From positions 1-59,205 of the forward strand of contig JAHRYV010000018.1 in assembly GCA_020621965.1 (NCBI GenBank): DNA of 59,205 nt, read 5' to 3'. Shown piece after piece: positions 22,813 through 26,682 of this stretch; the stretch's first letter is position 1; every line of letters starts with the position of its first letter. Source of the stretch: Curvibacter sp. (GTDB lineage Bacteria; Pseudomonadota; Gammaproteobacteria; Burkholderiales; Burkholderiaceae_C). The notes beneath the pieces are model-generated. The model worked only from the letters and a program-made list of their open reading frames with translations. It searched no databases and was not told the origin of the DNA. The position numbers and the translations under genes were made by a program.

Positions 22813-23458
22813 GAATTTTTCTTTCTTGCGTCGCTACTGTATCGCGGCCGGCCTGTTGGCCGCGGCCGTGGGGTTTCTGGGGCTGGCGCCGGCCCGCGCT
22901 GCCGAACGCACCGTGTTGGTGGTGGGCGATTCGCTGAGCGCCGAATACGGCCTGCCGCGCGGCAGTGGCTGGGTGACCCTGCTGGAGCAGCGGCTGGCGC
23001 GCGAGCGCAAGGGGCTGCGCGTGGTCAACGCCAGCATCAGCGGCGAGACCACCTTCGGCGGCCGCTCGCGCCTGCCGGCCCTGCTGGCGCAGCACCAGCC
23101 CGCCATCGTGATCATCGAACTCGGCGGCAACGACGCCCTGCGCGGCCTGGCGCTGGACGCCACCCGCGCCAACCTGGAGTGGATGACCCAGCAGGCCAAG
23201 AAGTCCGGCGCGCGCGTGCTGCTGCTGGGCATGGAGGTGCCGCCGAACTACGGCCCCGACTACACGCGCCGCTTCGCCGGCCTGTACCGCCAGGTCGCGC
23301 GCAGCGAGAAGACCGCCCTGGTGCCCTTTTTCCTCAGGGGCGTGGCCGACGGCCCCGAGCCCACGCGCTGGTTCCAGAGCGACCGCATCCACCCCAACAC
23401 CGAGGCCCAGCCCCTGATGCTGAACAACGTCTGGCCCGAGCTAAAAAAGATCCTGTAA
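22811..23458 (+). CDS. tesA: Arylesterase/acyl-CoA thioesterase TesA (GDSL family)
   Basis: Periplasmic multifunctional esterase, thioesterase I/lysophospholipase L1 type; 215 residues. A signal peptide ([20 protein letters not shown], cleavage after ARA) precedes the SGNH hydrolase core: block I VVGDSLSAEYGL with the nucleophile Ser, block II Gly (ASISGETTFGG), block III IELGGNDALRG and block V DRIHPNTEAQ with the catalytic Asp/His. ATG codons at 22796 and 22811 are both possible; the later one is listed because it gives a compact signal peptide. Either choice overlaps the divergent ybbA gene. The stop TAATG overlaps the mnmH start by one base. Confidence 0.88.
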   Translation: MNFSFLRRYCIAAGLLAAAVGFLGLAPARAAERTVLVVGDSLSAEYGLPRGSGWVTLLEQRLARERKGLRVVNASISGETTFGGRSRLPALLAQHQPAIVIIELGGNDALRGLALDATRANLEWMTQQAKKSGARVLLLGMEVPPNYGPDYTRRFAGLYRQVARSEKTALVPFFLRGVADGPEPTRWFQSDRIHPNTEAQPLMLNNVWPELKKIL

Positions 23459-24528
23459 TGCCCCTGGTCACCATCACCGCCGAAGAAGCCCTGCAGCGCC
23501 TGGACGACTTCGACACCATCATCGACGCCCGCAGCGAAGACGAATACGCCGAAGACCACCTGCCGGGCGCCGTGAACTGGCCCACGCTGGACAACCAGCA
23601 GCGGCACGACATCGGCACGCTCTACAAGCAGGTCAACGCCTTCGAGGCCAAGAAACGCGGCGGGGCGATTGCCGCGCGCAACATTGCGACCCATATCGAG
23701 CGCGAAGTGATCGATAAACCGAAGGACTGGAAACCCCTGACCTACTGCTGGCGCGGCGGCAAGCGCAGCGGCTCGCTGAGCCTGATCCTGAGCGAGATCG
23801 GTTTTCGGGTGACCCTCATCGACGGCGGCTACAAGGCCTTTCGCGCCGCGCTGCTGCTGGACATCCCGCGCCTGGCGCCGCAATTCGACTGGCGCGTGAT
23901 CTGCGGCACCACCGGCTCGGGCAAGACGCGCCTGCTGCAGGCCCTGCAGGCCGCCGGCGCCCAGGTGCTGGACCTGGAGGCCCTGGCCAACCACCGCAGC
24001 TCGGTGCTGGGCGCCATACCCGGCGTGGCCCAGCCCTCGCAAAAGCAGTTCGACACCCGCATCTGGGACGCGCTGCGCCGCTTCGATCCCCAGCGCCCGG
24101 TTTATGTGGAGAGCGAAAGCAAGAAGGTGGGCAACGTGGCCGTGCCCGGCACGTTGATCGAGGCCATACGCGCCGCGCCTTGCCTGAACCTGGTGCTGCC
24201 CGATGAGGAGCGCGTGGCCCTGCTGCTGGAGGACTACGACTTCTTCGTCCAGAACCCGGAAGCCTTCTGCGAACGGCTGGATGCGCTGACCGAACTCAAA
24301 GGCAAGCAGGTGGTGGACGGCTGGAAGCAGGCTGTGCGCAGCGGCCACATCGACAACGTGGTGCGCGACCTGCTGCTGAGCCACTACGACCCGGTCTACC
24401 TGCAGTCCATGGCGCGCAACTTCAAGCAGTTCGGCGCGGCGCGGGAAATCCGGCCGGCCGACCGCTCGGTGCCGGCCATGCGCGCGCTGGCCGAGCAGCT
24501 GCTGGCGGCCTCAGGCAACACTGAATAA
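23458..24528 (+). CDS. mnmH: tRNA 2-selenouridine synthase MnmH (SelU/YbbB)
   Basis: Converts 2-thiouridine at wobble position 34 of Lys, Glu and Gln tRNAs to 2-selenouridine through a geranylated intermediate, using selenophosphate. The 356-residue protein has an N-terminal rhodanese domain (about 1-120) with the catalytic Cys in TYCWRGGKRSGS and a C-terminal P-loop domain with CGTTGSGKTRLLQAL (about 145-160). Length is normal for the family. The start ATG overlaps the tesA stop (TAATG), so the pair is co-translated. The stop codon lies inside the left arm of the palindromic element at 24513-24675. Presence implies selenophosphate synthetase elsewhere in the genome. Confidence 0.92.
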   Translation: MPLVTITAEEALQRLDDFDTIIDARSEDEYAEDHLPGAVNWPTLDNQQRHDIGTLYKQVNAFEAKKRGGAIAARNIATHIEREVIDKPKDWKPLTYCWRGGKRSGSLSLILSEIGFRVTLIDGGYKAFRAALLLDIPRLAPQFDWRVICGTTGSGKTRLLQALQAAGAQVLDLEALANHRSSVLGAIPGVAQPSQKQFDTRIWDALRRFDPQRPVYVESESKKVGNVAVPGTLIEAIRAAPCLNLVLPDEERVALLLEDYDFFVQNPEAFCERLDALTELKGKQVVDGWKQAVRSGHIDNVVRDLLLSHYDPVYLQSMARNFKQFGAAREIRPADRSVPAMRALAEQLLAASGNTE

Positions 24529-24675
24529 GTCCTGGCGATGGGCTGCGCCCCGTGTCGGGATGGGATGCAAGGCGCAAACCACAGCCATAGCCTCAGCTAT
24601 GGCGAGGATTTGCAACGCCGCAGACCGCCCGAAACGGGGATGCAGCACGCGGCGGGGACTTGTTCAGTGTTGCCT
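24513..24675. repeat. Palindromic element A between mnmH and mgtE-like gene
   Basis: A nested quasi-palindrome filling the space between two convergent genes. Outer arms 24513-24532 (AGGCAACACTGAATAAGTCC) and 24656-24675 match as inverted repeats in 19 of 20 positions. Inside, CCCCGTGTCGGG and CCCGAAACGGGG pair with one mismatch. The core (24557-24629) is shared with element B: the 22 bases 24557-24578 are identical to 25814-25835, and 24602-24629 match 25858-25885 in 27 of 28. The apical hairpin is GCCATAGC/GCTATGGC (24584-24603). No open reading frame of note. The two neighbouring stop codons lie in the outer arms. Confidence 0.85.
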
Positions 24676-25696
24676 AAAGCACCACCGCGCTGACGATGAC
24701 GAAGTAGGTCAGCAGGCTCAGCAGGTCCTGGATGATGGTGGCCAGCGGGCCGCTGCCGTAGGCCGGATCGCTGCCCAGCCGCTCCAGCAGCCAGGGCAGC
24801 AGCAGGCCGATGGTGGTGGCGATGCAGCCGGCCGCGACCAGGGCCCCGGCCACGGCCAGCGCAAGGTGGACATCGCCGAAGACCAGCCAGACCCCCGGGA
24901 AAGTCAGACCGCCCAGCACCACCCCGATCAGCAGCCCGGTGCGCATCTCGCCGCCGACCAGGGCCGACAAGCGCGTATGGCTGAGCGAGAGGCCCCGCAC
25001 GGCCACGGCCTCGGTCTGGGTGCCGATGGCGTCGGCCAGATAGACCAGGCCGGGCACGAAAAAGGCGATCGCCGGGTGCAGCGCCAGCGCGCCCTCGAAG
25101 CGCGCCACGATGAAGGTGGCCAGCACGCTGCCGAGCAGGCCCAGCAGCAGCCAGGGCAGGCGGTGGCGCAGACGGCGCAGCGGGGGTTCCTCGATGGCCT
25201 CGCGCGCGCGCAGGTTTTCGCGTGTGATGCCGGCAAAGTGATGGATGTCTTCCACGTGCTCGCGGCGCAGGATGTGCAGCAGCGCCGTGGCGGGCACCAC
25301 CCCCAGCAGCCGGCCCCGGGCGTCGATGACCGGCATCGCGCTGAGCTTGTGGTGCAAGGCCAGCGAGGCCACCCGCTCCTGGTCGGTCCCGGTGTGGACC
25401 CGCGGGAAACCCGTGTGCGCGACACTGCCGATGCGTGTGTCCCGGGGCAGGGCCAGCAGTTCGGCCAGGGCCATGACCCCGACCAGGTGCTCCCGGGCGT
25501 CGAGCACGCAGACGATGTCGACACAGTCGTAGGGGTGAGCCAGCAGGTCGGTGATGACGTCCTGGGCCGTCTGCTCCGCGTGGGCCCGCGGCACGCCGGC
25601 GATCAGGTAGCGGCCGGCGGTTTCGTCATGGCGCGCCTCCTCGGGCGGACCGGGCTGGTCGGCCCCGCTCAGGCTGTTCTGGATGGCATCCGTCAT
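24674..25696 (-). CDS. MgtE-like divalent cation transporter lacking the N domain
   Basis: A 340-residue inner-membrane protein. A tandem CBS region (about 35-165, with HPYDCVDIVCVLDAREHLVG and LSAMPVIDARGRLLGVVP) is followed by a linker helix and five membrane helices. Recognisable MgtE pore elements are ADAIGTQTEAVAVRGLSL in the second helix and DPAYGSGPLATIIQDLLSLL in the fifth, with the pore-lining Asp. The superhelical N domain of about 130 residues that precedes the CBS pair in classical MgtE is absent. By family it moves Mg2+ or another divalent cation, gated by the CBS domains. The ATG at 25696 has AGGAGAC upstream. Its stop TAG lies in the right arm of element A. Confidence 0.82.
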   Translation of the reverse strand: MTDAIQNSLSGADQPGPPEEARHDETAGRYLIAGVPRAHAEQTAQDVITDLLAHPYDCVDIVCVLDAREHLVGVMALAELLALPRDTRIGSVAHTGFPRVHTGTDQERVASLALHHKLSAMPVIDARGRLLGVVPATALLHILRREHVEDIHHFAGITRENLRAREAIEEPPLRRLRHRLPWLLLGLLGSVLATFIVARFEGALALHPAIAFFVPGLVYLADAIGTQTEAVAVRGLSLSHTRLSALVGGEMRTGLLIGVVLGGLTFPGVWLVFGDVHLALAVAGALVAAGCIATTIGLLLPWLLERLGSDPAYGSGPLATIIQDLLSLLTYFVIVSAVVL

Positions 25697-25769
25697 CAGC
25701 GTCTCCTGCTTGTTGCACAAGGCGGGGCTTGCGCCCGCAACTGTCGATGCGACCCGCCGGCCCGCGCGC

Positions 25770-26038
25770 AGAGCCTGTTCACGGTCTCGCAGGGGCCGCG
25801 CAAGCGCCTTGCCGGGATGGGATGCAAGGCGCAAAACGAAGCCGGGCTCCATGCCCGGCGAGGCTTTGCAACGCCGCAGACCGCCTGGCAAGGTGCTTGC
25901 CCTTCGGGTTGGGATGAAATCGGGCGATTTGCCCACCAAATCCCTTGCATGGGCATGAGCCCATGCGGCGTGATCTTGGCGGCCAACTCATCCCGATTGC
26001 ATCCCAACGCGACCCCTGCGAGACCGTGAACAGGCTCT
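25770..26038. repeat. Palindromic element B with 31-bp terminal inverted repeats
   Basis: Occupies most of the 341-base gap between the mgtE-like start and the stop of the lipoprotein gene. Outer arms 25770-25800 and 26008-26038 are inverted repeats matching 30 of 31 (they begin AGAGCCTGTTCACGG). Two stem-loops lie inside. Arm 1 (25807-25893) is closed by CCTTGCC/GGCAAGG, carries the core shared with element A and has the apical hairpin GCCGGGC/GCCCGGC (25841-25859). Arm 2 (25909-26007) is closed by 16 bp with one mismatch (TTGGGATGAAATCGGG) and holds hairpins GATTTG/CAAATC and GCATGGGC/GCCCATGC (25947-25966). No target duplication is clear. Confidence 0.88.
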
Positions 26039-26682
26039 CAGGGCCGATGCGCCGGCCCCGCACAGTCCGTCCCCTGCCACCAGCCCTTGAGGTAGGCGCG
26101 GCGCAGCGTGCCGGCGCTGATGGCGGCGGCCACGGCGCTGGAATGGCGCTCGGCGCCGCTGAGCTTGCGCACCCAGCTGCGAAACGGCACCACGCCGTCG
26201 ACCACCGAACTCACAGTGTTCTTCACGGTGCCGACCGCGTACTGGCCGACGACGTCGGTCGCCTTCTCCATCAGGCCGGGATCGGCGGCCGGGGCGGCAA
26301 CGGCGTCGATGTCGGGGCCGAGCGCGGCGTCGAGCGCCTGCAATTCGGTCAGCAGCAGCGTGCAGGAGTGCCCAGCCGGCTCGGCATAGGGCCCCTTCTG
26401 GGCCCCCACCAGCACGGCGGGAATCTCGTTGTTCAGCAGGTTGAAGTCGTTCAGGGGCTGGGTCGCCACCTGGGTCAGGCCGCTGTTGGCCAGCAGCGTG
26501 GTGGTAGCCGCGACGGCGTCCGGGGCCTCGGCCGCCGCGGGCTCCGCAGGCGGTGGCGTCGTGGTGCAGGCGGCCGTCAGGAGAGCAACACCCAGGAGCA
26601 GGAGGAAAGGTGTGCGGCGCCGGCCGGGAGCCGACGGGTCGCCGTGCCCTGCCCGCCAGGCCGTGCCGCCAGCACCCGCCAT
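26038..26682 (-). CDS. Putative lipoprotein of unknown function
   Basis: A 214-residue protein not recognised as a named family. Residues 1-38 form a basic, then hydrophobic export signal (RRRTPFLLLLGVALLTAAC) ending in a lipobox with Cys39, so the mature protein is probably a lipid-anchored periplasmic protein. A low-complexity TTTPPPAEPAAAEAP spacer follows, then a helical region of about 160 residues with one later Cys (HSCTLLLTELQAL) and another near the end (GTDCAGP). The ATG at 26682 lies one base after the stop of the small upstream gene. The stop codon TGA coincides with the outer end of element B, so the C-terminus may have been altered by that element. Confidence 0.6.
   Translation of the reverse strand: MAGAGGTAWRAGHGDPSAPGRRRTPFLLLLGVALLTAACTTTPPPAEPAAAEAPDAVAATTTLLANSGLTQVATQPLNDFNLLNNEIPAVLVGAQKGPYAEPAGHSCTLLLTELQALDAALGPDIDAVAAPAADPGLMEKATDVVGQYAVGTVKNTVSSVVDGVVPFRSWVRKLSGAERHSSAVAAAISAGTLRRAYLKGWWQGTDCAGPAHRP

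Follow-up and report, generated by a model that had tools for sequence, protein, structure and literature searches.

The 59,205-bp stretch of Curvibacter sp. DNA analyzed here (assembly GCA_020621965.1, contig JAHRYV010000018.1, positions 1 to 59,205; hereafter the window) carries two palindromic elements, A and B, which are most likely copies of a superfamily of miniature inverted-repeat transposable elements (MITEs) moved by IS5 transposases, with a conserved folded passenger core set between exchangeable IS5-type ends. The new part is this modularity: near-identical cores are found with different matched ends, and the arms also occur without a core. Members of the superfamily come in a short form, with one core of about 95 nt, and a long form, in which a core is joined by a second, inverted module. 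The parts of A and B, including their terminal inverted repeats (TIRs) and the matches to the covariance model of the core (R1), are as follows.

24514..24674, + strand: element A, a short one-core MITE of 161 bp (TIR boundaries and core match of 108 bits)
24511..24513, + strand: left flank of A, TCA (its right counterpart is TAA at 24675-24677)
24514..24532, + strand: left TIR of A, type A (GGCAACACTGAATAAGTCC; boundaries and flanks read)
24545..24640, + strand: folded core of A (R1, 108 bits)
24656..24674, + strand: right TIR of A (TIR boundaries)
25771..26037, + strand: element B, long form, 267 bp (boundaries and R1 match)
25771..25800, + strand: left arm of B, a type B TIR (GAGCCTGTTCACGGTCTC...; inverted repeat, 97% complementary)
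25802..25896, + strand: first core of B (R1, 90.5 bits)
25912..26006, - strand: probable second core of B, inverted and diverged (R1, 28.2 bits, E 8.6e-5)
26008..26037, + strand: right arm of B (inverted-repeat search and boundary reading)
26038..26040, + strand: right flank of B, TCA, which is the stop codon TGA of the minus-strand gene 26775-26038

No other nearby inverted repeats in the window are as strong as A and B. Both are real elements, as the initial annotation had it, but their exact ends are now placed at 24514-24674 (flanks TCA/TAA) and 25771-26037 (flanks GCA/TCA). Its apical and closing stems are lettered correctly for each, and the common origin that it proposed is borne out by blocks of 40 nt (85% identity) and 29 nt (97%) present in both. 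The 22-nt and 20-nt core strings, allowing up to 3 mismatches, occur in the window only in A and B (shuffle means 0.00 and 0.02).

A second core, inverted and diverged, is probably present in B. This claim leans on relatives, because 28.2 bits is only slightly more than what the palindromic core of A scores in R1 against its own reverse strand (24.5 bits); reverse-strand self-matches in the survey of long forms reached 23.8 and 24.5 bits. The place of the second core was matched on the opposite strand in 17 of 33 long-form loci (17.6 to 40.8 bits in R1), and in distant families the second module of some members, among them L283, L288, L291 and L297, visibly contains the words of the core.

Modularity of core and ends

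The ten copies from the genus of the host have cores that are 92% identical on average, whereas identity of the ends between copies is only 66% on the left and 71% on the right; the two ends of any one copy are 94% matched, and most of the change falls in the outermost ~19 bp. The initial annotation described the outermost arms of A and B as unrelated to each other, each a near-perfect inverted repeat. That they differ between the elements and match within each stands, but judging from the sequences they are two different kinds of IS5-type TIR on a mobile element and not an evolving RNA helix.

A working set of 133 copies was collected, of which 96 were called short and 25 long, the remaining 12 being without clear arms. 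Automatic alignment gave inverted arms for 121 of them (some misplaced, e.g. in B, the ends of which were therefore taken from direct boundary reading), and an end type was assignable by consensus match in 120. The inverted end types are GGCRACGCTGAAYAAGTC (type A), GAGCCTGTTCA...TCTC (type B), GGGANCCTCTGCACGAATC (type C) and GGAACCTCTGAACAAGTC (type D), together with rarer others. In distant families (L281-L302) the same core often lies inside ends beginning with TAGTGTACTGC- or TAGTACTCCGTCA-, which are foreign to the Comamonadaceae types.

On a tree of the cores the end type changed at least 27 times, compared to 63 times in shuffles, and 11 of these changes were between IS5 subgroups; the tree is poorly resolved, and its starred branches force just one or two changes per type. 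The clustering of end types on it suggests that core and ends have for the most part been inherited jointly.

Of 26 genomes of the genus, 6 have palindromes of 35-48 bp with type-B-like ends but no core. These occupy seven places (L268-L274, for example L269 1501-1546), four of them with CTAG-like flanks on both sides, and one in G318 (L270) consists of nearly exact arms of B. They appear to be mobile units of little more than two ends. In G303, exact solitary 18-bp type B ends occur with no partner in the sequence shown (L097 1501-1518 and L110 1501-1518), one of them directly after a stop codon.

Candidate IS5 partners

Transposons with comparable ends belong to two IS5 subgroups (NCBIfam transpos_IS5_3 and transpos_IS5_4). 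Vandammella contains type B elements as well as an IS5_3-group transposon with the inverted ends GAACCTGTTCAAAATCTTTT and TAA on both sides, a close match; it measures 848 bp end to end with an open frame of 177 aa, and its gene may be broken or frameshifted. In Simplicispira hankyongi, elements of types A and C occur alongside an IS5_4-group transposon with type-C-like ends (a looser match), and Acidovorax sp. Leaf191 has an IS5_4-group transposon with type-A-like ends and an IS5_3-group transposon with type-B-like ends. In G309, from another family of the order, a multi-copy insertion sequence (IS) ends in GGAAACACTGAACAAGTC after TAG or TAA, one base off the right arm of A; its copies lie at contig ends (L068, L075, L079, L083, L085, L086), where only the start of the putative transposase is seen. 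In the genome of the window itself, type A ends (up to 2 mismatches) and type B ends (up to 1) are confined to the elements themselves, and the single DDE transposase match has no link to them.

Target duplications and empty sites

Comparison of flanks and of orthologous sites shows that the elements are mobile. Identical 4-bp flanks (CTAG, CAAG, CCAG) were found in 11 of 29 copies against 4.7 expected from re-paired flanks (p 0.0006), and for 3-bp flanks (TNA) the two sides were identical in 10 of 40 against 5.4 expected (p 0.012); this test used 69 of the 87 distinct arm pairs. The duplication is imperfect at both A and B, and we infer that the TCA left of A is a TAA target duplication with one base changed.

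A sister copy of type A in the same genome lies between two genes which we take to be folP and glmM. At this site the joined flanks are unbroken in 20 of 25 relatives, split in one and without a match in four, and the empty site has the same target sequence in 13 relatives. For element A itself, R1 matches nothing in 25 orthologous mnmH loci of relatives, where gene order differs. Four of these loci (L239, L240, L243, L250), read by eye, have the mnmH-like gene immediately next to what is the right-hand neighbour of B in the window, and therefore the block A-mgtE-B is missing there. Overall the elements are small, dispersed and transposase-free, with TIRs, target duplication and empty sites, as is typical of MITEs.

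Distribution of the core

Covariance-model searching for the core, as proposed in the initial annotation, matched relatives across Pseudomonadota. The genome of the window has seven core matches, and 76 of 299 genomes of the family have matches, some by chance: the reversed control pattern gave a single match in ten genomes, single-match genomes among the 76 may include chance ones, and three of the 29 new loci L008-L036 (L014, L024 and L029) matched by chance within coding sequence. Genome G065 has 152 copies by match count alone. With R1 at E <= 1e-4, 70 of 369 class-level genomes and 46 of 398 phylum-level genomes, own genome included, contain the core. Carriers among the matches listed are Acidovorax, Comamonas, Vandammella, Simplicispira, Diaphorobacter, Variovorax, Xylophilus, Alcaligenaceae and Oxalobacteraceae, plus a few metagenome-assembled genomes from other groups, which are possibly mis-binned.

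Among plasmids, five records contain A, one B and one the core of B, and of 24 records with the left arm of B none is a transposon by its record listing. Phages searched with B gave no match. A known RNA was rejected as a candidate, the window having no Rfam match at gathering scores; at a loose cut-off, six distant loci gave four sub-threshold matches.

Fold of core and arms

The blocks that are conserved between A and B, regarded as unpaired in the initial annotation, turn out to be base-paired to one another (TGC with GCA, GCG with CGC, CAAA with TTTG), forming a stem with small A-rich bulges, a GA/GA mismatch and a near-fixed U-G pair. The expectation stated there that stems vary by compensation also holds in other copies: in 38 copies the covariation score was 0.274 versus 0.102 in shuffles, with 0 of 500 shuffles as high and slid controls likewise exceeded, and 89.9% of cells were paired versus 79.8% when shuffled. 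The number of further pair types in the same copies (35 vs. 32.5) is within the range of the shuffles (73 of 500).

Predicted RNA folding of the plus strand gives z scores of -5.10 for A and -5.68 for B, none of 200 shuffles being as good, and in both elements the plus strand folds more stably than the minus strand. This preference recurs in 87 of 90 short elements (90 of the 96 short copies entered the test), with means of -108.1 versus -95.7 kcal/mol. It also recurs in 20 of 24 cores of distant families at class level (24 of the 28 loci L280-L307), which were chosen by a model tolerant of G-U pairs that may favour the plus strand.

Mismatches in the arms are likewise directional. In the 87 distinct arm pairs, 115 mismatches in the TIRs are of the wobble (G-U) type on the strand of the core, compared to 24 of the reverse type and 64 transversions; counted as distinct events, the numbers are 52 versus 19. 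By organism group the direction is 27 versus 1 with 6 ties, i.e. 27 of 28 informative groups agree. In the core, for which 112 matches were aligned to the covariance model, pairs other than the near-fixed U-G show 45 wobble-type versus 25 reverse mismatches. A transcription-linked mutation bias would not yield this pattern, because the elements lie both ways relative to genes. Covariation, strand stability and wobble bias all back the folded nucleic acid proposed in the initial annotation, and the wobble-favouring mismatches point to a folded single strand, perhaps RNA, as the target of selection.

Position relative to genes

Elements of this superfamily tend to lie at gene ends. An open frame of at least 100 codons ends between -60 and +30 bases from the element end in 82 of 92 copies with enough flank, as opposed to 33.5% of 1840 controls, and with at least 200 codons the figures are 70 of 92 copies and 13.7% of controls; these counts use open frames and not annotation. 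In A, a TAA within the left TIR is the present stop of the mnmH-like gene.

Proposed mechanism and alternative explanations

We suppose that the elements are moved by an IS5 transposase which is encoded at another place and acts on every copy with ends that it can recognise, and that the core is a passenger which has been joined to different ends over time. The fold would be kept since a folded single strand in the orientation of the core, most likely RNA read from the preceding gene, may let the element sit harmlessly or even usefully at gene ends. On landing, an element could supply a replacement for the stop codon at the site, because its ends contain stops. We further propose, tentatively and with considerable reserve, that the core is an independently conserved folded module, found in much of Pseudomonadota and carried between the ends of different transposon groups. 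The bulged stem and the one-strand wobble in arms and core would then reflect selection on a single strand, which might act as a functional RNA or as a single-stranded DNA ligand of some factor.

Several observations speak against IS5-driven movement of a folded passenger core. Exact duplications are lacking in most copies, and the left flank of B (GCA) is unlike its right flank (TCA). The own assembly has no IS5 element with these ends, the genome being fragmented and 86% complete; elements and IS5 ends match within one genome in only two of three genomes, and the element copies of Leaf191 (L124, L147, L175, L177) have type C ends, unlike its IS5s. The core is absent from the four IS5 loci checked (L308, L309, L310, L312), so that the interior did not prove to be a remnant of a parent IS at any of them. 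As to the fold, the preference for the plus strand falls to 16 of 24 (p 0.02) for whole class-level elements, the wobble bias is slight among type B ends (9 vs. 7) and reversed in Vandammella (2 vs. 6), and shared ancestry partly accounts for it. The elements face the neighbouring gene about equally often in either direction (61 left, 63 right), which fits poorly with a role in the mRNA of a single gene.

The absence of the core from the four IS5 loci bears as well on the unlikely alternative that these are ordinary deletion derivatives, each TIR type coming from its own IS5 and the core being leftover subterminal IS5 DNA. The clustering of TIR types on the core tree is what such an origin would leave, but the core is widespread and one and the same core occurs with the ends of two IS5 subgroups. 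Gene-end location and stable folds would also suit hairpins that are useful to the host at 3' ends, as terminators or mRNA stabilisers under selection, with mobility an accident. We give this little chance, as intrinsic terminator-like sites are absent from the plus strand (two were found on the minus strand vs. 0.8 expected), the two sites examined are not common to relatives, and copy number varies widely among genomes.

Template-switch (quasipalindrome) repair, which the initial annotation had entertained and which would keep palindromes matched without any selection on the fold, would account for arms that are matched within a copy and dissimilar between copies. It leaves unexplained why change among near-identical copies is limited mainly to the ~19 bp at the termini, why the arms resemble IS5 ends and why the mismatches have a direction, and we regard it as very improbable. 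Strong covariation, conserved bulges and strand-biased wobble might equally be expected from a stationary structured RNA, a cis-regulator or small RNA duplicated by chance, the stems of which drifted in compensation. Presence and absence at an orthologous site, IS-type ends, target duplications, differing gene neighbours and the lack of an Rfam match in the window at gathering scores speak against such an RNA, and it appears very unlikely.

Relation to known elements

Of known elements, YPAL/RU-2, QMITE2 and possibly BRE come closest in kind. YPAL/RU-2 of Yersinia, like the A/B elements in size and kind, is a palindromic miniature insertion of ~168 bp that duplicates its target, is plentiful in intergenic DNA and yields long hairpin transcripts (PMC2229807, PMC2759123). 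Its duplications are given as 3 to 26 bp and its inverted repeats as internal (PMC2229807, PMC2759123). Identity with YPAL/RU-2 was rejected, since the similarity score to RU-2 is below the shuffled mean; that to RU-3 is slightly above the mean, still within shuffles. QMITE2 of Coxiella is a MITE of 150-190 bp with TIRs, a conserved palindromic stem and a more divergent tip; it lies mostly in 3' untranslated regions and overlaps gene ends, and it has small TIR-less versions and relatives in another class (PMC5896051). Compared by description only, its plan and location resemble those of the A/B superfamily, but QMITE2 has direct repeats of 7-11 bp and a GTAG repetitive extragenic palindrome, and the A/B superfamily, with 3-4 bp, does not agree with it in this respect.

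BRE, a GC-rich, mostly intergenic repeat of 75-91 bp reported in Bordetella, Polaromonas, Acidovorax, Delftia and other Comamonadaceae (PMC3110155), is similar to the core in size and host range, by description only. In the portion of that source consulted it is partly tandem, like a variable-number tandem repeat, and is presented without TIRs (PMC3110155). BRE may be an earlier sighting of the core. RUP, Correia/NEMIS and ERIC are likewise bacterial MITEs with foldable transcripts; the excerpted text describes for them no core that is combined with ends from more than one transposase group (PMC2229807). The IS5 families transpos_IS5_3 and transpos_IS5_4 have similar ends and TA-containing flanks and differ from the A/B elements, which are without a transposase gene, just as the four IS5 loci are without the core.

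The passages seen of a 2024 review of MITEs cite Polaromonas (Comamonadaceae) MITEs from the JS666 genome paper and contain no mention of Comamonas, Acidovorax or YPAL (PMC10969869). The Polaromonas JS666 MITEs may represent an earlier description of the element; our literature searches, core strings included, found no paper on it, with the JS666 description uncompared.

MITEs are usually viewed as decayed transposons, the ends and interior of which belong together, whereas here one folded interior has ends resembling those of two transposase subgroups, similar arms are found without it, and the fold is strand-biased. Should the core prove to be a functional module, it would represent a common structured element, for which we found no name, at the 3' ends of genes in many Pseudomonadota, and it would explain "covarying palindromes" that readers of sequence take for structured RNA. 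Two-core elements would in that case offer transcripts from either side one core in the right orientation. This raises the questions of the binding partner of the core and of selection on MITE interiors.

Genes next to the elements

Two genes of the window overlap the borders of A.

23458..24528, + strand: rhodanese-domain gene, presumably MnmH/SelU-like, with its end ...SGNTE* inside A (domain match and frame reading)
24674..25696, - strand: MgtE-like cation transporter gene with a CBS domain; the right border of A falls within its stop codon TAG

A composite transposon A-mgtE-B of the standard type was ruled out, the ends of A and B being different. The mgtE-like gene sits between two different MITEs.

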